64,000 bases of DNA from an uncultured Cellulomonas sp. Its GTDB lineage: Bacteria > Actinomycetota > Actinomycetes > Actinomycetales > Cellulomonadaceae. The DNA lies in the NCBI RefSeq assembly GCF_947494015.1, contig NZ_CANLTL010000007.1:157088-221087 (forward strand), written 5' to 3'. Made by a program: the position numbers and the translations under genes. The notes below the pieces were generated by a model. That model ran no database searches and was not told the DNA's origin. It was given only the letters and a program-made list of their open reading frames with translations. Shown here piece after piece: positions 22,011 through 32,334 of the stretch. Each line of letters begins with the position of its first letter. Within the stretch, counting starts at the first letter, position 1.

Positions 22011-22029
22011 CCCCGCGCCGATCGTTCGG

Positions 22030-22115
22030 CCGTCCACGAAAACGCAAACCCGTCGCGAGGCGGGGACGCAAAGCCATGGGACCCACGCGGTTCGCCAGGC
22101 CACCGAACGACGGAG
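22030..22115 (+). promoter_or_regulatory. class I cyclic-di-GMP riboswitch (GEMM-I)
   Basis: The leader contains GCAAACC (22044-22050), a 6-bp hairpin CCCGTC-GCGA-GGCGGG (22049-22064) capped by a GNRA tetraloop, then GGGACGCAAAGCCA (22063-22076), an exact match to the class I c-di-GMP consensus. A second arm with GGTTCG / CGAAC (22090-22107) is in the place of the tetraloop-receptor helix. CCGTC (22030) can pair with GACGG (22109) as the closing helix, directly next to the GGAG RBS (22112-22115), 6 bases before the GTG. The RBS next to the aptamer suggests control of translation; the direction (on or off) cannot be told. Confidence 0.8.
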
Positions 22116-22121
22116 AACACC

Positions 22122-24308
22122 GTGCACCGCACGCCCAACCTCCCCCTGCCCGCATCCATCCGGCCGGCACGACGCCGGCCCCGACCGTCCCTGCGGATCA
22201 GCTCCACCGCCGCGCTCGCCGCGCTCGCCGGCTCCCTGCTGGTCGGCCCCGGCGCAGCCCCGGCCGCGGCCGTCCCGTCGGGCGCTCCCGTCGGCTTCGT
22301 CGACAGCGTCGACGCCGTCGCCGGCGGCGTCCGGGTCCGCGGCTGGGCCGCCGACGGCGACACGGCCGGCGCGGTCACCGTGCGCATCACCGCCGGCGGC
22401 ACCACCCGCGACGTGCGGACCGGCGCGCCGCGCGTCGACGTCCAGAGCGTCCACCCCGAGCTGACCACCACGACCGGGTTCGACGCCGTCGTCCCGCTGC
22501 CCACGGGCACGCACCAGGTCTGCGTGACGTTGCTCAACGTCGGCGCCGGGTCGGACTCGGTGCTGCCCTGCCGCACGGCCACGGTCGGCGCCACCACCGC
22601 GGCGGCCGGCACCCGTCCCCTGACCTGGGCGCCGCCGACCCTGACCAACCCCGTCACCGTGACGGTCTCGGCGACGAACCGGCAGCCGCGACTGCAGTCC
22701 GGCCAGGACTACATCATCAAGATGCCGAGCACTCCGCTGGACGTCTCGGGCGGCCTGGTGCTGTCCGGCGGGCGCAACGTGGTGCTCATCGGCGGCGAGA
22801 TCAGGATGTCCAAGGCCGGCACGACGTCGAACGCGCTGCGGGGCCTGTACCTGAAGAACCAGACCGGCACCGTCCATGTCGAGGGCCTGCGGATCACCGG
22901 CTCCACCCTCGCCGAGGGCATCGACCTCGACCAGCGCGCCGGCGGCACCGTGCAGCTGCAGAACATCCGCGTCGACACCGTGCACGGCTCCGAGGGCGGG
23001 CTGCACGCCGACGTGCTGCAGACCTGGGGCGGGCCGACGGTGCTGCGCGTCGACGGCCTGACCGGGTACACCACCTACCAGGGCCTGTTCATGCTGCCCA
23101 TGCAGTACGACAGCCCGGCGCCGCAGGTGTTCGACCTGCGCAACGTCAACCTCGTCGGGCAGGCCGGCAGCAAGTACCTCCTGTGGCGCGACAGCGCGAC
23201 GTGGCCCATCAAGCTCACCAACGTGTGGGCGCAGACCTCGCAGGTCGACGCCCCGCGCCACCAGTTCCTCCGGGACAACGGCACCAACCCCTGGGCCGCG
23301 GTCCAGGAGGGCAAGCCCGCGACCGGCGACATCGTGCCCACCGGCATGGCCGGCCTGCGGTACGTCGCCCCGGGGTACATCGGCACGGCCGCCGTCCCGT
23401 CCACCCAGCCCGCACCCGCGACCACCCCGGCTCCGGCGCCGGCGCCCGCTCCGGCTCCGGCGCCCGCCGCGACCTCGGTGAACCACACGGCGTTCCGGTA
23501 CGGCGGGTCGTGGTCGGTGTCCACCTCGCGCGGTGAGCACTACACCAAGGTCGCGGGCCGGACGGCGTCCCTCACGGCCACGGTCGGCTCCGGCGGCGGC
23601 ACGGTGTCGCTGCAGGGCATCCTCGGCAGGAACAAGGGCATCGCCGCCATCAGCATCGACGGTGGGCCCGAGGTCACCACCAGCCAGTACCGCAGCTCCG
23701 GGCAGACGGCGACGTTCTTCACCACGCCGCAGCTGAGCGCCGGCACGCACACCATCACCGTGCGCGTCACCGGCACCCGCGCCCCGGGCGGAACCGACGC
23801 CTACGTCGCCCTGACCGGCGCCACCACCACCAACGGCACCCTGACGACACCGGCCACCCAGCCCGCGCCGGCGACCCAGCCGGCGCCCGCTGCCGAGCCC
23901 GTGCCAGCCTCCACCGCGACCTCGGTGAACCACTCCGCGTTCCGGTACGGCGGCTCCTGGTCGGTGTCCACCTCGCGCGGTGAGCACTACACGAAGGTGG
24001 CGGGCCGGACGGCGTCCCTCACGGCGACGGTCGGCTCCGGCGGCGGCACGGTGTCGCTGCAGGGCATCCTCGGCACCAACAAGGGCATCGCCGCCATCAG
24101 CATCGACGGCGGACCCGAGGTCACCACCAGCCAGTACCGCAGCCCCAGCCGGACCGGCACCTTCTTCACCACGCCGCAGCTGAGCGCCGGCACGCACACC
24201 ATCACCGTGCGCGTCACCGGCACCCGCGCCCCCGGCGGCACCGACGCCTACGTGGCCCTGACCGGCGCGACCATCACCAACGGGACGCTGAGCACGCCGG
24301 CCGGCTGA
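22122..24308 (+). CDS. secreted parallel beta-helix protein with two galactose-binding-like domains
   Basis: A 728-residue exported protein of no characterised function. Signal peptide about 1-50. Residues about 54-150 form a GWAADGD-type domain seen in actinobacterial surface proteins. Residues about 160-430 resemble a right-handed parallel beta-helix (SGGRNVVLIGGEIRMS, GLRITGSTLAEGIDLDQ, LHADVLQTWGGPTVL, GYTTYQGLFMLP). A Pro/Ala linker leads to two 120-residue repeats (about 453-575 and 602-725) like carbohydrate-binding jelly rolls. The fold recalls pectate lyases and other polysaccharide lyases or epimerases, so processing or binding of the EPS is a reasonable guess. Three paralogs are in the window (24628, 34631, 42337). 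The GTG start has GGAG at 6 bases and sits under a c-di-GMP riboswitch. Confidence 0.85.
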   Translation: MHRTPNLPLPASIRPARRRPRPSLRISSTAALAALAGSLLVGPGAAPAAAVPSGAPVGFVDSVDAVAGGVRVRGWAADGDTAGAVTVRITAGGTTRDVRTGAPRVDVQSVHPELTTTTGFDAVVPLPTGTHQVCVTLLNVGAGSDSVLPCRTATVGATTAAAGTRPLTWAPPTLTNPVTVTVSATNRQPRLQSGQDYIIKMPSTPLDVSGGLVLSGGRNVVLIGGEIRMSKAGTTSNALRGLYLKNQTGTVHVEGLRITGSTLAEGIDLDQRAGGTVQLQNIRVDTVHGSEGGLHADVLQTWGGPTVLRVDGLTGYTTYQGLFMLPMQYDSPAPQVFDLRNVNLVGQAGSKYLLWRDSATWPIKLTNVWAQTSQVDAPRHQFLRDNGTNPWAAVQEGKPATGDIVPTGMAGLRYVAPGYIGTAAVPSTQPAPATTPAPAPAPAPAPAPAATSVNHTAFRYGGSWSVSTSRGEHYTKVAGRTASLTATVGSGGGTVSLQGILGRNKGIAAISIDGGPEVTTSQYRSSGQTATFFTTPQLSAGTHTITVRVTGTRAPGGTDAYVALTGATTTNGTLTTPATQPAPATQPAPAAEPVPASTATSVNHSAFRYGGSWSVSTSRGEHYTKVAGRTASLTATVGSGGGTVSLQGILGTNKGIAAISIDGGPEVTTSQYRSPSRTGTFFTTPQLSAGTHTITVRVTGTRAPGGTDAYVALTGATITNGTLSTPAG
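23482..24303 (+). repeat. two tandem copies of a ~370-bp binding-domain repeat
   Basis: Copies at about 23482-23850 and 23930-24303 are nearly identical at DNA level, separated by a Pro/Ala linker. The second copy is also almost identical to 26109-26490 in the next gene, including the stop codon, implying recent duplication or gene conversion. Confidence 0.85.
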
Positions 24309-24501: not shown

Positions 24502-24530
24502 TTGCCCGGCTCTCGACGCCGCCCTACGGT
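24502..24530 (+). promoter_or_regulatory. promoter of the second beta-helix gene
   Basis: TTGCCC (24502-24507), a 17-base spacer, then TACGGT (24525-24530). The same TTGCCC and TACGTT pair with an 18-base spacer precedes the paralogous leader at 26644. Transcription would start near 24537, at the edge of the conserved leader. Confidence 0.55.
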
Positions 24531-24535
24531 GTCAC

Positions 24536-24621
24536 GCGTCCTGAAGGACACGCGGCCCCGTTCGGCGGGGACGTGACGCCACGGGCCGTGCGTTCGACGC
24601 GGGCCATCGAACGACACGGAG
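24536..24621 (+). promoter_or_regulatory. variant leader RNA homologous to the c-di-GMP-I riboswitch
   Basis: Aligns with the riboswitch at 22030: hairpin CCCCG / CGGGG (24556-24570), then GGGACGTGACGCCA where the class consensus is GGGACGCAAAGCCA, then a GTTCGA / TCGAAC arm and CGACACGGAG with the RBS. The upstream GCAAACC is replaced by GCGGCC, and the GNRA loop is lost. An extra hairpin GTCC-TGAA-GGAC (24538-24549) precedes it. It is either a decayed riboswitch or one with altered specificity. Confidence 0.55.
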
Positions 24622-24627
24622 AACCAC

Positions 24628-26490
24628 GTGCACCGCAGACGGATCACCCCTGCCCGCAGAAGCCGGGCGGCGGCCGGGCACAGGACCGTTCGGCGCCTCA
24701 CGGTCGCCGCGGCCGCCGGTGCGCTCCTGCTGGCCGGGGCGGCGCCCGCCCAGGCCGCGACCGTTCCGCCGTCGAGCACCGCCGAGGCGACCGAGCCGGC
24801 GCCGGTCGACACGACCCTCGCCACCTCGAGCAGCACCCGACCGCTGACCTGGGCACCGCCGCGGCTGACGAACCCGACGACGGTCACCGTCTCCGCCAGC
24901 AAGCACAACCTGAGCCTGAGCTCCGGCCGGGACTACGTCATCGCGATGCCCAGCACGCCCCTGAACGTGAAGGGCGGGCTCACCATCTCCGGGGGCCGCA
25001 ACGTCGTGCTCATCGGCGGCGAGATCAAGATCTCGCAGAGCAGCACGTCCGCCAACGCGCTGCGCGGCCTGTACCTCAAGGGGCAGAGCGGCACGGTGCA
25101 CGTCGAGGGTCTGAAGATCACCGGGTCCACCCTCGCCGACGGCATCAACCTCGACCAGCGCAACGGTGCGACGGTGCAGCTGCAGAACATCCGCGTCGAC
25201 ACGGTCCACGGCACGGGGGGCCTGCACCCCGACGTGCTGCAGTCCTGGGCCGGTCCCACGGTGCTGCGCATCGACGGCTTCACCGGGTACACCACGTACC
25301 AGGGCTTCTTCCTGACCCCGCTGCAGTACGGCCCGGCACCGTCCAAGGTGGACCTGCGCAACGTGAACCTGGTCGGTCAGGGTGGGAGCAAGTACCTCAT
25401 GTGGCGCGACGGCGGGTCGGGCTCGTGGCCGCTGACCTACCAGAACGTGTGGGTGCAGTCGTCGCAGACGGACGCCCCGCGCAGCCAGTTCCTGCGCACC
25501 AACGGAACGACGTCGTGGGCGAACGTCAACCTGGGCCGGCCGGGCGGGGTGGACTTCGTCCCCGCCGGGATGGCGGGGGTCGGGTACCGCTCCCCGGGCT
25601 ACGCAGGCTCCGCGGCACCGGCACCGGCACCCGCTCCGGCGCCCGCACCCGCTCCGGCCCCGGCCCCGGCCCCGGCTTCTGCGGCCTCGGTCGATCACAC
25701 GGCGTTCCGGTACGGCGGGTCGTGGTCGGTGTCCACCTCGCGCGGTGAGCACTACACCAAGGTCGCCGGCCGGACGGCGTCCCTCACGGCCACGGTCGGC
25801 TCCGGCGGCGGCACGGTGTCGCTGCAGGGCATCCTCGGCACCAACAAGGGCATCGCCGCCATCAGCATCGACGGCGGACCCGAGGTCACCACCAGCCAGT
25901 ACCGCAGCCCCGGCCGGACCGGCACCTTCTTCACCACACCCGCGCTGAGCGCCGGCACGCACACCATCACCGTGCGCGTCACCGGCACCCGCGCCCCCGG
26001 CGGCACCGACGCCTACGTCGCCCTGACCGGCGCCACCGCCACCAACGGCACCCTGAGCACGCCGACGTCGTCGCCGGCGACGGCGTCCGCCGCCGCGTCG
26101 TCGTCCGTGGACCACACCGCGTTCCGGTACGGCGGCTCCTGGTCGGTGTCCACCTCGCGCGGTGAGCACTACACCAAGGTGGCCGGCCGGACGGCGTCCC
26201 TCACGGCCACGGTCGGCTCCGGCGGCGGCACGGTGTCGCTGCAGGGCATCCTCGGCACCAACAAGGGCATCGCCGCCATCAGCATCGACGGCGGACCCGA
26301 GGTCACCACCAGCCAGTACCGCAGCCCCAGCCGGACCGGCACCTTCTTCACCACGCCGCAGCTGAGCGCCGGCACGCACACCATCACCGTGCGCGTCACC
26401 GGCACCCGCGCCCCCGGCGGCACCGACGCCTACGTGGCCCTGACCGGCGCCACCATCACCAACGGGACGCTGAGCACGCCGGCCGGCTGA
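24628..26490 (+). CDS. secreted parallel beta-helix protein with two galactose-binding-like domains (second paralog)
   Basis: A 620-residue paralog of the protein at 22122 that lacks the GWAADGD-type domain. Signal peptide about 1-45 (LTVAAAAGALLLAGAAPAQA). The beta-helix region is about 72-325, with PLTWAPPRLTNPTTVTVS, ISGGRNVVLIGGEIKIS, GINLDQRNGATVQLQNIRVD, LHPDVLQSWAGPTVLRIDG and TTYQGFFLTP. Note His-Pro-Asp where the paralogs have His-Ala-Asp. An alternating Pro/Ala linker precedes two binding-domain repeats (about 354-477, 493-618). The GTG start has GGAG at 6 bases, inside the tail of the variant leader RNA. It is probably co-regulated with the first paralog. Confidence 0.85.
   Translation: MHRRRITPARRSRAAAGHRTVRRLTVAAAAGALLLAGAAPAQAATVPPSSTAEATEPAPVDTTLATSSSTRPLTWAPPRLTNPTTVTVSASKHNLSLSSGRDYVIAMPSTPLNVKGGLTISGGRNVVLIGGEIKISQSSTSANALRGLYLKGQSGTVHVEGLKITGSTLADGINLDQRNGATVQLQNIRVDTVHGTGGLHPDVLQSWAGPTVLRIDGFTGYTTYQGFFLTPLQYGPAPSKVDLRNVNLVGQGGSKYLMWRDGGSGSWPLTYQNVWVQSSQTDAPRSQFLRTNGTTSWANVNLGRPGGVDFVPAGMAGVGYRSPGYAGSAAPAPAPAPAPAPAPAPAPAPASAASVDHTAFRYGGSWSVSTSRGEHYTKVAGRTASLTATVGSGGGTVSLQGILGTNKGIAAISIDGGPEVTTSQYRSPGRTGTFFTTPALSAGTHTITVRVTGTRAPGGTDAYVALTGATATNGTLSTPTSSPATASAAASSSVDHTAFRYGGSWSVSTSRGEHYTKVAGRTASLTATVGSGGGTVSLQGILGTNKGIAAISIDGGPEVTTSQYRSPSRTGTFFTTPQLSAGTHTITVRVTGTRAPGGTDAYVALTGATITNGTLSTPAG
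25690..26482 (+). repeat. two further copies of the ~370-bp binding-domain repeat
   Basis: Copies at about 25690-26060 and 26109-26482. The downstream copy is close to identical to 23930-24303, to the last codon and stop. Such direct repeats about 2.2 kb apart could recombine and delete or amplify one gene. Confidence 0.85.
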
Positions 26491-26560
26491 TCGCTGCCTC
26501 CGGGCGCAGCCTCGGCACCCCATCCTCGGCACCGCGGCCTCCGCACCGCGGCCCGGCAGC

Positions 26561-26594
26561 GCGTGGCGGCCCGTCGCAGGACGGGCCGCCACGC
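26561..26594 (+). terminator. terminator after the second beta-helix gene
   Basis: Perfect 15-bp stem GCGTGGCGGCCCGTC / GACGGGCCGCCACGC with a 4-base loop (GCAG). Very strong. Confidence 0.75.
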
Positions 26595-26608
26595 GGCCGG
26601 CACCTCGC

Positions 26609-26638
26609 TTGCCCGCGTCGCGGGCGCTCGCCTACGTT
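26609..26638 (+). promoter_or_regulatory. promoter upstream of the GT2 leader
   Basis: TTGCCC (26609-26614), an 18-base spacer, then TACGTT (26633-26638), closely matching the promoter at 24502. It starts transcription at the third homologous leader. Confidence 0.55.
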
Positions 26639-26643
26639 GTCCC

Positions 26644-26731
26644 GCGTCCTGACGGACACGCGGCCCTGCCCGGCAGGGACGTGACGCCACGCGCCGCGCG
26701 TCCCAGCAGGCCGTCGACCGACACGGAGAAC
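26644..26731 (+). promoter_or_regulatory. third leader RNA of the GEMM-I-like family
   Basis: Homologous to 24536: GTCC-TGAC-GGAC (26646-26657), hairpin CCCTGC-CCG-GCAGGG (26664-26678), GGGACGTGACGCCA, and CGACACGGAG with the RBS. The stem differs from the other two leaders by paired changes, so the helix is kept by selection or was until recently. The second arm is weaker than in the other two. Confidence 0.5.
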
Positions 26732-26734
26732 CAC

Positions 26735-26785
26735 GTGCACCCCAGCCGGACCCCGGTCCCCAGCGCCCCGCGGGCGCACCGGTGA
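26735..26785 (+). CDS. 16-codon leader ORF, probable remnant of a beta-helix gene start, coupled to the glycosyltransferase
   Basis: GTG with GGAG at 6 bases, in the same leader context as the beta-helix genes. It encodes MHPSRTPVPSAPRAHR and its TGA overlaps the GTG of the next gene (GTGA). The N-terminus resembles the signal-peptide starts MHRRRITPARRSR and MHRTPNLPLPAS of the beta-helix proteins. It looks like the 5' end of a lost paralog that now translationally couples the downstream gene, which has no good RBS of its own. Confidence 0.5.
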   Translation: MHPSRTPVPSAPRAHR

Positions 26786-27753
26786 GCGACCGGCGCACCG
26801 TCTCGGTCGTCATCCCGTCCTACCGGCGCCCCGACCGGCTGCCCCCGCTGATCGAGGCGTTCGGACGGACGTCGGCCGACCAGATCGTCGTCGTGCTCGA
26901 CGGCCCGCACCCCGGCGCCGTCGACGCGCTGCGAGCGCTCGGCGTCGACCGGCTCACGATCCTCGAGCTGCCGCAGAACGTCGGCGTGGCCCGGGCCCGC
27001 GTCGCCGGCGTCGAGGCGGCCACCGGCGACGTCGTCCTCGTCGCCGACGACGACGTCATGCCGGGGGCGGACGACGTCGTCGAGGCGCACCGCCGCTTCC
27101 ACGAGACGACACCCCGCGGCGTCCTGGTCGGCTACATGCCGGTGGCCGAGCCCGCCCGCCCCGGGCCGGACGACGCCCCGACCCGGCTGTACGCGCGGGA
27201 GTACGAGGGTGCCGCACGGCGCTGGGAGGCCGACCCCGGCTCCGTCCTCGGTGGCCTGTGGGGCGGTGCGGTGAGCATCGACACCGGCCTGTTCCGCGAG
27301 GCCGAGGCGCTGCTGCCGTCGATCCGGATGGACTACAGCGAGGACCTCGACCTCGGGCTGCGGCTCGAGCAGCTCGGCGCCACCGCCCGGTTCGACCGGT
27401 CCGTCGCCAGCACCCACCTGCACCGGCGCGGCTGGGACGCCTTCCTGCGCGAGTCCGCCGCCCGCGGACTGGCCGCGCACCAGCTCGAGCAGCGGTGGGG
27501 CCGCCTGCCGGTGCACGTCGCCGCACTCGTCCAGGGTGCCGGCGTGCAGGGGCGGGTCGCCGACGTCCTCGCGCGGGCCCCGCGCGCCGCGACCACCGTG
27601 CCGCTGACCGTCGCGTACCGGCTCACCGGCCGGCTCGGGGCGTCCGGCCCGCAGGAGGCGGTGTGCCGGCTCGCGCGTCGCCTGGTGGCCGGCCGCACGT
27701 ACCGGTCGGCCCGACGCGGCGCCGCCCCGATCGCGGCGCAGCCGGCGGCCTGA
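26782..27753 (+). CDS. GT2 family glycosyltransferase
   Basis: Adds a sugar from a nucleotide donor in the cytoplasm. It is GT-A fold: VSVVIPSYRRPDRLPPLIEA at the N-terminus, the metal-binding VLVADDDVMPG near residue 90, and a catalytic ED pair in YSEDLDLGLRLEQLG near 190. The length is 323 residues, and the C-terminal 60 residues are basic and Arg/Ala-rich. The GTG start overlaps the leader ORF stop by 4 bases. It inherits the leader and promoter of the beta-helix family, so it may respond to the same signal. Confidence 0.85.
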   Translation: MSDRRTVSVVIPSYRRPDRLPPLIEAFGRTSADQIVVVLDGPHPGAVDALRALGVDRLTILELPQNVGVARARVAGVEAATGDVVLVADDDVMPGADDVVEAHRRFHETTPRGVLVGYMPVAEPARPGPDDAPTRLYAREYEGAARRWEADPGSVLGGLWGGAVSIDTGLFREAEALLPSIRMDYSEDLDLGLRLEQLGATARFDRSVASTHLHRRGWDAFLRESAARGLAAHQLEQRWGRLPVHVAALVQGAGVQGRVADVLARAPRAATTVPLTVAYRLTGRLGASGPQEAVCRLARRLVAGRTYRSARRGAAPIAAQPAA

Positions 27754-27958: not shown

Positions 27959-30016
27959 ATGCAGGACCGACCCCCCGCCGACGTCCCGGCCACGGCAGGA
28001 AGACCGCGACGACTGGACCGGCTCACCACGTTCGACTGCTTCGACACGGTGATCACGCGTGCCGTCGGCGACCCCGAGGGCATCGCCTACATCACCGGCC
28101 GGCGGCTGCAGCGCGACGGCGTGACCGACGTCAGCGGCGAGCGGTTCGCGGCGGCCCGCGCCGAGGCCGAGCGACTGGTGCAGCGCAGCCACGGGGACGA
28201 CGGCACGATCGACGACATCGCGGTGCAGCTCACCGAGCTGCTCAACGTGCCGGCGACCCTGGCGCCCGTCCTGCGGGACGCCGAGCTGGCCACCGAGCGC
28301 GAGCTCAGCCGCCCGGTCCCGGGCGCGCACGCCCGGATCGCCGAGGCGCGCGCGTCCGGCAGCACGGTCGGGTTCCTCTCGGACACCCCGCTGCCGCACT
28401 CCGTCGTGGACGGGCTGCTGCGCCAGCACGACCTCATCACCGACACCGACCTGCTGTGGGTCTCCAACGAGCTCGGCGCCGGCAAGGGCCGCGGCTCGGC
28501 CTATCCCGCCGTCGTCCAGCGCCTCGGCGGCCCGCCCGCCTCGTGGACGCACCAGGGCGACGACGCGCGCTCCGACGTGCGCAACGCCCGGCTGGTCGGG
28601 ATCACCGGCGTGCACCGCCCGGCCGGCCGGCTGAACCGGTACGAGAAGGTGCTCGAGCGGTACGGCGCCTCGAGCGGAGGGCTCGCGTCGGTGCTGGCGG
28701 GTGCGTCCCGCCGCACGCGGCTGGGCCTGGCCGCCGAGCGCCCCGACGTCCCGGCCGGGCACGCCACCGTCGCGGCCGGGGTGGCCGGGCCGCTGCTGGC
28801 CGGCTACGTGCTGTGGTGCCTGCAGCAGGCGCAGGCGGCCGGCTGCCGGCGGCTGTACTTCGTCGCCCGCGGCGGCGAGGTGCTGCTCGAGATGGCGCAG
28901 CGGCTCGTGGAGCACCTCGACCTCGACCTGGAGCTGCGCTACCTGTACGGCAGCCGCAAGGCGTGGATGCTGCCGGGCACCGCGGCCGAGCGGCGCGACT
29001 TCCTGCTCGCGGTGGCCGGCCGCGAGGACCGCGTCACCGTGCACAGCACCCTGAAGTGGTTCTCCGTCCAGCCCGACCAGATCGAGGCGCCGCTCGCCGC
29101 GGCCGGCTTCCCACGGTCGGCGTGGGACCAGCCGCTGGGTCGCGACGGGCTGGTCCGGCTGGCCGGCGTGGTCGAGGACCCGGCGGCCGACGCCGTCCTG
29201 ACCGCGCACGCCGCCCCGCGCCGGGACGCGGCCCGGACCTACCTGGGCGGCGTCGGCCTGCTCGACGACGTGCCGTTCGGCATCGTCGACATGACCGGCC
29301 GCGGCACCACCGGCCGATTCCTCACCGACACGCTGCGCAGCTTCGGCGGGACGGCACCCACGGCCGAGCTGTACTTCGGCCTCGAACGCGAGACGCATGA
29401 CGTCGGCGACCGGACGCTGCGCGCGTACATGTTCGACGACCGCCGCGGGATCGGGGTGACCCGGCGCGACGTCGACCTGTGGGTGCCGCTCGAGGCGTTC
29501 ACCCAGGCGCGCCACGGGCACGTGCAGCGCTACGAGGAGGTCGACGGCGAGGTGCGCCCGGTGCTCGCCGAGGAGGTGAACGCCGAGCTGCTCGCGTGGG
29601 GCCTGGACGGCTTCCGCGGGGGGCTGGACACGTTCTGCCGCGAGCTCGGACCGGTGCTGCGGCACGTCGACGCGTGGGGCGACGTCCGGCGGTCCACGTG
29701 GGAGGCGCTGCGCACGTTCTGGCTCAGCCCGACCCCGCAGGAGCTCGCCGACTGGCAGGACTTCCCGCTCGAGGACGACGACACCACCTACCCGATGGGC
29801 CGCGGGTACACCGGCAAGCAGGTCCTGAGCACGGCACTGTCCGGCAAGCCCCGCTTCCGGGCCCGCGGCACCTGGCCGGCGGCCGTGCGGCAGAACGCAC
29901 CGGCCGGGATCAAGGCCGCCCAGGCGGGTGCCGGCCTGGCCGCGACCGGTCTGCACAAGGTCCGCCGCGCCGGGCACTTCCTGGGTCACCGCCGGCAGGT
30001 CCGACCCGGCTCCTGA
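27959..30016 (+). CDS. COG5610-type HAD protein of the polysaccharide locus (paralog 1)
   Basis: A 685-residue cytoplasmic protein. The N-terminal HAD domain has motif I TFDCFDTVITR (about 24-34; the two Asp are the nucleophile and acid/base positions), LSDTPLP as motif II, Lys in GAGKGRGSAY as motif III and GDDARSD as motif IV. A second region (about 275-560) contains LYFVARGGEVLLEMAQRL and FGIVDMTGRGTTGRFL. In the paralog at 30277 the matching segment is FVARDGEVML, so this copy has Gly in place of an Asp. Such proteins occur in capsule and EPS clusters, but their substrates are not established. The ATG has GAGGAG about 5 bases upstream, and CCTACGCT at 27842-27849 is a candidate -10. Confidence 0.75.
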   Translation: MQDRPPADVPATAGRPRRLDRLTTFDCFDTVITRAVGDPEGIAYITGRRLQRDGVTDVSGERFAAARAEAERLVQRSHGDDGTIDDIAVQLTELLNVPATLAPVLRDAELATERELSRPVPGAHARIAEARASGSTVGFLSDTPLPHSVVDGLLRQHDLITDTDLLWVSNELGAGKGRGSAYPAVVQRLGGPPASWTHQGDDARSDVRNARLVGITGVHRPAGRLNRYEKVLERYGASSGGLASVLAGASRRTRLGLAAERPDVPAGHATVAAGVAGPLLAGYVLWCLQQAQAAGCRRLYFVARGGEVLLEMAQRLVEHLDLDLELRYLYGSRKAWMLPGTAAERRDFLLAVAGREDRVTVHSTLKWFSVQPDQIEAPLAAAGFPRSAWDQPLGRDGLVRLAGVVEDPAADAVLTAHAAPRRDAARTYLGGVGLLDDVPFGIVDMTGRGTTGRFLTDTLRSFGGTAPTAELYFGLERETHDVGDRTLRAYMFDDRRGIGVTRRDVDLWVPLEAFTQARHGHVQRYEEVDGEVRPVLAEEVNAELLAWGLDGFRGGLDTFCRELGPVLRHVDAWGDVRRSTWEALRTFWLSPTPQELADWQDFPLEDDDTTYPMGRGYTGKQVLSTALSGKPRFRARGTWPAAVRQNAPAGIKAAQAGAGLAATGLHKVRRAGHFLGHRRQVRPGS

Positions 30017-30276: not shown

Positions 30277-32334
30277 TCAGGGGTGCGCGGCCGGACCGTT
30301 GTCGTCCGTGGCCCGCAGGGCGGCGCGGCCGGCCGCGAAGGACCGCGCCCGGGCCACCTTGCCGACCGCACCGCGCGCGGACCTGGCCCCCCGGTGCAGC
30401 ACCTGCACGGGCGCGGGCGTGCTCGCCCACACGCCCGCGGGCCAGGTGCCCTTGGCGCGCAGCCGGGGACGACGCTGCAGCACCGAGCGCACGATGTCCT
30501 CCACCGGCAGGTGGCCGGCGATCGGGTAGCGGCTGACGTCGTTCTCGAACGGGTAGCTCCCCCAGGCGGCGACCTCGGCCGCGGTGGGGTGCTGCCAGAA
30601 CCGGCGCAGCGCCCGCCAGGTCGGCGTCCGGACGTCGACGAAGGGGTCCAGCAGTCCCAGCGCGGGCACGAGCTCGTCGCAGAACACCTCGATGCCCCGC
30701 CGCACGTCGGCGATCCACCCGGTCGCGGCGTCGGCCGGAGCGCCGAGCACCGCCTCGGCGTGCCCGTCGACCGTCCGGTAGCCCTCGACCCGGCCGTGCG
30801 TGGCCGCGGTGAACAGCTCCAGGGGGATGTAGATGTCGTGGCCGTACCGGGAGAACCCGGTGCCCCGCCAGTCGTCGTACATGTAGCCGTGCACGTCCCG
30901 GCCGGGGGCGTCGTGCCGTGGGTAGGTCACGCCGAAGTAGCACTCGACGGCCGGCGCGGACCCGCCGCAGCGCTCGAGGACCGCGGTGAGCAGCCGGCCG
31001 ACGGTGCCCTGCCAGCCGATGTCCACCAGGGCGTAGAGCTCGCCGTCGAGCAGCCCGGCGCCGCGCAGGTAGTCCTGGGTCGCGGCGGTGCGCTCCTGCG
31101 CCTGCGCGGCGACCACCGGTCCCAGGCCCGGGCCGACCACCAGCGCGATCAGCCGGTCCAGCGCCGCGGGATCCAGGTGCTCGTCCCACGTCCCCGCGGG
31201 GAAGCCCGCCCCGGCCAGGACGTCGGCCTGCGTCTCGGGGTCGACGTCGACCCAGCCGAGGCAGTTGCGGACCGTCACCCGGTCCTCGCGGCCGAGGACC
31301 GCGGCGAGGCGGCCGGCGTCGAGCTCGGCCATCGACGGCAGCAGCCACGCCCGGCGCGAGCCCTCGAGGTAGCGCAGGTCCAGGTCCAGGCCGAGGCCCT
31401 CGACGAGCCGGCGGGCGATCGCGAGCATCACCTCGCCGTCCCGCGCCACGAAGTACACCCGCCGGCACCCGGACCGCACGGCCCGCTGCAGCGACCACAG
31501 CACGTACCCGACGAGCAGCGGCGCGGCGACCCCGGCCACCACGGACGCCCGCGCCCGGGCCATCCCGGGCTGCTCGACCTCGAGCACCAGCCGGGTGCGA
31601 CGCGACGCACCGGCCAGCAGCGAGGAGAACCCGCCGGTCGCCGGCGCGGCGTCCTCGAGGATCTGCTCGTAGCGGTTGAGCTGCCCGCGGCCCTCCCAGG
31701 TCGCCGTCAGGCCGGACAGCCGCGCCATCCGCACGTCGCTGCGCTGGTTGTCACCGACGTGCCGCCACGGTCCGGGTACGCCACCGAGCCGGCGCGCGAC
31801 CTCGAAGTAGGCGGACCCCTTGTCCTTGCCGGCTCGCAGCTCGTTGGACACCCACAGCGGGTCGCCGTCCGCCAGGACGCCGTTGCGGCGCAGCAGGTCG
31901 GCGACCACCGCGTGCGGCAGCGGTGTGTCGGACAGGAAGCCGACCCGCTCGCCCCCGGCCCGGGCGGCGTCGACCTGCGCCTTGGCCGCGGGGACCGGGC
32001 GGGTCAGCTCGACCTCGACCTCGAGCTCGGTCCGTTCGAGCACCGCCGCCACCCCCGGGTCGAGCCCCAGCAGGTCGGCCCACTGGACCGCGATCTGGGT
32101 CAGGGTGTTCGCCTCGCCGTACCGCTCGTGGACCAGCTCCTCGGCGCGGATCCGGGCCGAGACGACGATCTCCGCGGGGGCGGTCAGCACCCCGGCGGAC
32201 GCCAGCCGGGCGGCCGTCACGTAGCCGACCGACCGCGGCCCGCCCACCGCGCGGGTCACCACCGTGTCGAAGCAGTCGAACGTCACCAGCGGCGCGGCGC
32301 CGGCCGGCTGTCCCTGCGGTTCCCCTGACGACAC
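30277..32334 (-). CDS. COG5610-type HAD protein of the polysaccharide locus (paralog 2)
   Basis: 685 residues, the same length and domain plan as the gene at 27959, in convergent orientation. HAD motifs: VTFDCFDTVVTR near residue 17, LSDTPLP, LRAGKDKGSAY, and GDNQRSD. The second region has RRVYFVARDGEVMLAIARRL and ALVDIGWQGTVGRLL, and keeps the Asp that paralog 1 lacks. The C-terminus is Arg/Ala-rich. It probably modifies or transfers a phosphorylated EPS precursor; this is inferred from context only. Divergence suggests an old duplication rather than a recent copy. Confidence 0.75.
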   Translation of the reverse strand: MSSGEPQGQPAGAAPLVTFDCFDTVVTRAVGGPRSVGYVTAARLASAGVLTAPAEIVVSARIRAEELVHERYGEANTLTQIAVQWADLLGLDPGVAAVLERTELEVEVELTRPVPAAKAQVDAARAGGERVGFLSDTPLPHAVVADLLRRNGVLADGDPLWVSNELRAGKDKGSAYFEVARRLGGVPGPWRHVGDNQRSDVRMARLSGLTATWEGRGQLNRYEQILEDAAPATGGFSSLLAGASRRTRLVLEVEQPGMARARASVVAGVAAPLLVGYVLWSLQRAVRSGCRRVYFVARDGEVMLAIARRLVEGLGLDLDLRYLEGSRRAWLLPSMAELDAGRLAAVLGREDRVTVRNCLGWVDVDPETQADVLAGAGFPAGTWDEHLDPAALDRLIALVVGPGLGPVVAAQAQERTAATQDYLRGAGLLDGELYALVDIGWQGTVGRLLTAVLERCGGSAPAVECYFGVTYPRHDAPGRDVHGYMYDDWRGTGFSRYGHDIYIPLELFTAATHGRVEGYRTVDGHAEAVLGAPADAATGWIADVRRGIEVFCDELVPALGLLDPFVDVRTPTWRALRRFWQHPTAAEVAAWGSYPFENDVSRYPIAGHLPVEDIVRSVLQRRPRLRAKGTWPAGVWASTPAPVQVLHRGARSARGAVGKVARARSFAAGRAALRATDDNGPAAHP

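Follow-up and report, generated by a model that had tools for sequence, protein, structure and literature searches.

The gene cluster and its leaders

An uncultured Cellulomonas sp. with a genome of 4.28 Mb (G000) carries on contig C7 a gene cluster in which a canonical riboswitch of class I for cyclic diguanosine monophosphate (c-di-GMP-I, also known as GEMM-I; Rfam RF01051) is followed by two altered leaders, whose origin and present role are the subject of this report. All positions refer to the window, i.e. the entire analyzed stretch of 64,000 nucleotides, and all features lie on the plus strand unless stated otherwise. The gene order is a flippase-type gene (Pfam Polysacc_synt_3), the c-di-GMP-I riboswitch, beta-helix gene 1, variant leader 1, beta-helix gene 2, variant leader 2 and a glycosyltransferase gene. 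The name "beta-helix" for genes 1 and 2 was taken over from a preliminary description that had been made from the sequence alone. This description offered two readings of the variant leaders, namely a new ligand or a different mechanism or, as the simpler alternative, an inactive duplicate.

The canonical riboswitch (22030-22113) lies upstream of beta-helix gene 1. RF01051 matches positions 22033-22107 with 53.8 bits (gathering threshold 35), while RF03167 (c-di-GMP-I-GGC) scores 51.3 bits and stays below its gathering threshold of 59. In the numbering of the Vc2 riboswitch, it harbors A at position 47 (22070) and C at position 92 (22103); it departs from Vc2 itself by having C (22043) for G at position 20. 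The predicted P1 helix pairs CCGUC (22030-22034) with GACGG (22109-22113) and extends two bases into the GGAG ribosome-binding site, which suggests an OFF switch whose ligand-stabilized P1 would cover part of this site. The c-di-GMP-I fold is the best predicted fold for an RNA that starts at 22030; a start at 22028 instead favors a different fold. There are five RF01051 riboswitches in this genome, and 116 of the 221 genomes (25 genera) in our family collection contain at least one match at E ≤ 0.001. With a pattern search that demands the exact core and that other cases can escape, position 20 was found not to be G in seven matches from 6 of the 221 genomes (A four times, C twice and T once). 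All three pyrimidine cases, the riboswitch at 22030 included, belong to the genus of the window (this genome and G181).

The variant leaders extend from a predicted -10 element to the start codon, at 24531-24627 (leader 1) and 26639-26734 (leader 2). As previously described, both align with the riboswitch at 22030 as far as the ribosome-binding site, and both display the same substitutions: the canonical core GACGCAAAGCC is replaced by GACGTGACGCC (24570-24580 and 26678-26688), and GCAAACC by GCGGCC. Each contains a P2-like hairpin, CCCCG-TTCGG-CGGGG at 24556-24570 and CCCTG-CCCGG-CAGGG at 26664-26678, in which the GNRA loop (GCGA) has indeed been lost, the loops now being TTCGG and CCCGG. Near the 5' ends, GTCC-TGAA-GGAC (24538-24549) and GTCC-TGAC-GGAC (26646-26657) can be recognized. 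Predicted promoters precede leader 1 at 24502-24530 (TTGCCC, 17 nt, TACGGT) and leader 2 at 26609-26638 (TTGCCC, 18 nt, TACGTT). They were assigned by eye and by comparison of the copies, and a scan with a promoter consensus yielded no promoter at all, these two included. A terminator scan detected no terminator at the variant leaders; its single terminator-like hit lies at 22043-22057 on the minus strand.

Gene 1 (22122-24308) is an open reading frame for a predicted exported protein, as judged by eye, with two C-terminal repeats. Gene 2 (24628-26490), an open reading frame with homologs, lies behind leader 1; the two are 71% identical over the domain. Neither protein matches a Pfam family above its curated cut-off, and a sequence comparison with solved structures gave matches only around a proline/alanine-rich linker and one weak match in the repeats. 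The last gene (26782-27753) encodes a family 2 glycosyltransferase (PF00535, 58.8 bits with a cut-off of 23.3). Between gene 2 and leader 2, a perfect 16-bp inverted repeat (26560-26595) resembles a terminator, albeit one without a T run. Directly behind leader 2 follows a frame of 16 codons (26735-26785) with its own ribosome-binding site, which begins like gene 2 (15 of the first 18 nucleotides are identical) and overlaps the start of the glycosyltransferase gene by GTGA, so that translation of the transferase is probably coupled through this relic.

Relatedness to c-di-GMP-I riboswitches and changes at the ligand site

The kinship of the variant leaders was assessed with two models, R1, built from the two variant leaders only, and R2, built from 33 canonical relatives. 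The latter derive from 48 canonical loci, from which the riboswitch at 22030 (R22030) was omitted on purpose, L242 because it had been excised incorrectly, and 13 others by eye, most of them near-duplicates. Of 49 loci in total, 40 were extracted with a pattern that requires A47, and the A47 count of that extraction is disregarded; eight of the other nine were read by eye, and the last, L249, is a 15.4-bit chance match outside the canonical set. In two of the 40 (L247 and L220), position 92 was read as C by eye. Searched against these 48 loci (147 kb), R1 returned 19 matches at E ≤ 1, of which 12 fall on a riboswitch and its strand, including the best five (L022 with 31.1 bits and E 1.2e-5, R22030 with 30.9, L248 with 25.5, L245 with 22.0 and L241 with 20.5 bits). 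The next matches on riboswitches reach 12-16 bits (L225, L230, L023, L240, L228, L224 and L238); the other seven are located elsewhere, and R1 misses 36 of the 48 riboswitches. In a set of six canonical riboswitches, R1 matched three at E 3.3e-4 or better, followed by L023 (0.23) and L025 (1.3), while L021 was not listed. Conversely, R2 assigned 85.7 bits to R22030, 15.3 bits (E 6.2e-4) to leader 1 and 9.2 bits (E 0.072) to leader 2, which rank second and third in 5.2 kb. Over 133 kb, leader 1 obtains E 0.016, close to a match of 14.1 bits from a relative; leader 2 does not appear at E ≤ 1. The positions of the R1 matches and the R2 ranks support a relatedness above chance, i.e. shared descent of the variant leaders with the c-di-GMP-I family, and the GEMM-like character attributed to them in the preliminary description is thus upheld.

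The c-di-GMP families of Rfam (RF01051 and RF03167) do not match either leader, even at E ≤ 10 in stretches of 126 nt. According to excerpts of PMC4744006, PMC9049102 and PMC11218506, G20, A47 and C92 of Vc2 are ligand contacts. A47, which intercalates between the ligand guanines in c-di-GMP-I, is replaced by G in both variants (24575 and 26683). C92, which contacts one of the ligand guanines, is replaced by U (24607 and 26714), an assignment that for leader 2 rests on the alignment with leader 1, since R2 aligns this end differently. All 33 aligned canonical riboswitches have A and C at these positions, a conservation that is partly built in by the choice of the canonical loci via their RF01051 score. 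The base at position 20 of the leaders depends on the alignment: retaining the outer P2 pair gives C, and deleting the internal-loop AAA, as in the R2 alignment of leader 1, gives G. According to an excerpt of PMC9049102, A47 is conserved throughout class I riboswitches, and an excerpt of PMC4744006 states that the Vibrio cholerae riboswitch Vc1 no longer bound its ligand when its counterparts of A47 and C92 were mutated. Beyond the contacts, the overall fold is disfavored as well. The c-di-GMP-I fold lies 19.4 (leader 1) and 22.4 kcal/mol (leader 2) above the best fold vs a mean of 9.3 kcal/mol (3.9-13.8) for the 33 canonical riboswitches, a gap that is widened by imposing only the ten remaining pairs on the variants.

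Probable duplication, helices and competing explanations

From the predicted -10 element to the start codon, 83 of 96 positions are identical in the two leaders. Shuffle controls place the flanking DNA near chance: the promoter spacers agree at 10 of 17 positions (shuffle mean 62%), and the 100 nt upstream of the leaders at 59 of 85 (shuffle mean 63.5%; the value is reached by 12% of shuffles). Since the leaders are copies, their shared changes count as one event. The weight that the preliminary description gave to changes common to two leaders was overstated, as the two represent one sample.

A second argument of the preliminary description concerned helices maintained by paired changes. The P2 arms are present as quoted, and P2 is predicted in both copies, with pair probabilities of 0.60-0.63 in leader 1 and 0.97-0.98 in leader 2 (0.28 for the outermost pair). 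Yet the claim of maintained helices was overstated, and the evidence from paired changes is weak: the observed count of two double changes comes from one C-to-T change (column 31) that is paired with either of two G-to-A changes, and random placement of the same substitutions yields as many double changes in shared helices (at least five pairs) in 96 of 2000 trials. Likewise, the GTCC/GGAC sequence occurs in both leaders, but the hairpin is predicted for leader 1 only (0.52-0.64 vs 0.01). The branched consensus structure proposed by RNAalifold has one compensatory pair among 28 and includes a small hairpin, CACG/CGUG, at the start codon. Fold energies compared with shuffled sequences (z -0.63 and -0.88 for the leaders) are uninformative, as the genuine riboswitch itself does no better with z -0.13. 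Two further candidate structures were discarded: a zipped pocket, in which a CACG/CGUG helix across the core would close the ligand site, and an 8-bp helix CGCGUCCU/GGGACGUG common to both copies each have a predicted probability of 0.0 in both leaders.

The search for a conserved variant core beyond this genome that had been proposed as a check was carried out, and no third member was seen in the 221 family genomes and 396 order genomes among the matches listed under strict filters. To the extent covered by these searches, this corresponds to the computational half of the outcome that the preliminary description had named as a refutation. The order genomes are a sample of a larger group and share members with the family set, and the whole-genome R1 searches scored 17 (family) or 9 (order) candidates per genome, so weak relatives can be missed. 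R1 gave matches at E ≤ 1 in 148 of the 221 family genomes, and 29 loci besides those of the window were inspected. Of these, 20 were analyzed with Rfam, which identified c-di-GMP riboswitches in three and none at E ≤ 0.01 in the other 17, which read like chance matches. In the order genomes, the matches listed at E ≤ 0.001 comprise both leaders, L022 and three further hits, each from a different genome of another family. Apart from this genome, none of the 221 family genomes contains the exact 16-nt core pattern. A contig scan for CGCGGCC-N9-15-GGACGTGACGCC gave at least 119 stretches; 119 were inspected by eye and showed no leader-like surroundings, and 80 of these were searched with R1, without a match at E ≤ 0.05.

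On the protein side, an ortholog search in genome contigs found nothing, and relatives of the gene 2 domain at E ≤ 1e-20 occur in 5 of the 221 genomes, the own genome included. In a tree, the gene 2 domain falls together with a gene of G179, the nearest relative (support 85/82, not a starred fork), and that gene is a likely ortholog. The leader of this G179 gene is devoid of a recognizable aptamer and resembles the variants at its 3' end only (14.4 bits, with E 4.5e-4 over 311 bases and E 0.22 over 153 kb). In place of the aptamer, the likely ortholog of the sister species features a perfect hairpin of 9 bp, GGACCGTGC/GCACGGTCC, shortly before the ribosome-binding site (L029, 1286-1306). Genes 1 and 2 of the window are 71% alike, and gene 1 and its G179 counterpart 70%; the gene duplication may hence have occurred before or after the species split, as these values are compatible with both orders.

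In light of these findings, we consider it reasonably probable that the two leaders are a decayed c-di-GMP-I pair that was spread by local duplication, has likely lost c-di-GMP sensing and now serves as ligand-independent 5' leaders. The inactive duplicate envisaged in the preliminary description is thus the better supported of its two readings. In the scenario that we propose, a single loss of the core preceded duplication of the leader in this cluster, and the copy at 26639 came to lie ahead of the glycosyltransferase gene along with the first codons of the beta-helix gene, whose 16-codon relic would now mediate translation of the transferase by coupling. Both leaders would still supply a predicted promoter, one predicted hairpin and a ribosome-binding site. 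As read, they lack the P1 partner strand of the riboswitch at 22030, so the genes behind them may have been freed from c-di-GMP control.

Several observations weigh against such a decay. P2 is still paired in both leaders, with a C-G pair in one copy that is U-A in the other, and the 16-nt core block GGGACGTGACGCCACG is identical in both. Moreover, conservation covers the leaders but not their promoter spacers, which may point to selection for a functional leader. R1 also reaches 32.0 and 31.1 bits in other genomes (G103 and G018) at sites without a c-di-GMP family according to Rfam; because unrelated stretches attain 31-32 bits, the relatedness rests on where the R1 matches fall and not on their score. 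The two limits stated above, i.e. the choice of the canonical loci by score and the fold imposed with the remaining pairs, point in the same direction. Furthermore, an excerpt of PMC4744006 reports inconsistent effects of single core mutants of Vc1 in vivo, with the reporter of the A47-equivalent mutant behaving like the wild type, so core changes need not appear as lost regulation.

The chief rival accepts the loss of c-di-GMP sensing, but assumes that a ligand-free role was kept or gained, either as a structured 5' untranslated region that sets mRNA stability or translation or as the target of a protein or small RNA. The contrast between the high identity of the leaders and the near-chance similarity of promoter spacer and upstream DNA would be explained in this way, as would the placement of the copies in front of two different genes, the predicted P2 and the CACG/CGUG hairpin of the consensus fold. 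However, a recent short duplication or gene conversion accounts equally well for the conservation, the double changes are equally frequent in the random placements described above, and the copies disagree in their 5' hairpin and in how the region around the ribosome-binding site is paired. We regard a ligand-free role as rather unlikely. More doubtful still is a re-specified riboswitch, in which a rebuilt junction would bind a different ligand, perhaps another dinucleotide, and continue to control the ribosome-binding site. This idea draws on the core block common to both copies, on the retained P2 and on U92, which corresponds to half of the A20/U92 double substitution by which Vc2 reportedly acquires binding of cyclic diadenosine monophosphate (according to an excerpt of PMC9049102). 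Against it stand G in place of A47, a position 20 that is not A under either alignment, the missing GNRA tetraloop, the large distance of the c-di-GMP-I-like fold from the best fold and the lack of a homolog in the genomes searched. Its most elaborate form, a pocket rebuilt by G47, U92, a new internal loop and a new 5' hairpin that yields a species-private switch for co-regulation of the surface protein and the glycosyltransferase by a ligand other than c-di-GMP, appears similarly improbable. The new ligand or different mechanism of the preliminary description accordingly receives little support, given that the shared changes follow from one duplication, that the helix evidence is weak and that no homolog was seen in the family and order genomes searched. 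Finally, the conserved parts could act as DNA, with CGCGTCCTGANGGACACG at the predicted transcription start serving as operator for a regulator protein. A near-palindrome is found at the predicted +1 in both copies, and exact matches to CGCGTCCTGANGGACACG occur at just these two places in the genome. Elsewhere, matches with up to three mismatches (33 and 42) are roughly as numerous as for the reversed control (34 and 27), so that no regulon is visible, which makes an operator the least probable of these explanations.

Two further observations concern the surroundings of the leaders. The C-terminal repeats of both beta-helix genes (23432-23731, 23879-24178, 25644-25943 and 26061-26360) share 87-92% DNA identity with a reference copy vs 75-84% for the other long repeats common to both genes, as if they had been homogenized. 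Downstream of the cluster, 27959-30016 (plus strand) and 30277-32334 (minus strand) encode convergent proteins of 685 amino acids, both with weak HAD-hydrolase matches and with N-termini that look alike by eye.

If the leaders are indeed decayed copies, this gene cluster together with that of the sister species would represent a natural series, which consists of a canonical-scoring riboswitch with C20, two leader copies without the core and a leader without recognizable aptamer. Such a series would allow for testing how a gene escapes second-messenger control after duplication. It also carries a warning: changes common to neighboring paralogous leaders do not independently attest to a new riboswitch class.

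Comparison with known riboswitch families

Among the titles listed in a literature search with little coverage of subscription papers, no published description of such leaders was found. A natural precedent for a specificity that was changed via core changes in the same scaffold is provided by the GEMM-Ib variants that sense cyclic GMP-AMP. These retain the fold and have A at position 20, unlike the variant leaders, which harbor C or G at this position and for which the fold is not favored. The c-di-GMP-I-GGC family belongs to the same clan as RF01051, and the variant leaders give no match to it.

Measured against RF01051 itself, the leaders differ by the changes of A47 to G, C46 to U and C92 to U, by replacement of the AAA in the internal loop of P2 by GG or its deletion, by the absent GNRA loop, by an altered P1 partner and by the lack of an Rfam match. 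In turn, they resemble this family in their model scores, in their location in front of a predicted surface gene and in the P2 hairpin, and they share with it the GACG joint, the GCC/GGC base of P3 and the spacing to the ribosome-binding site.

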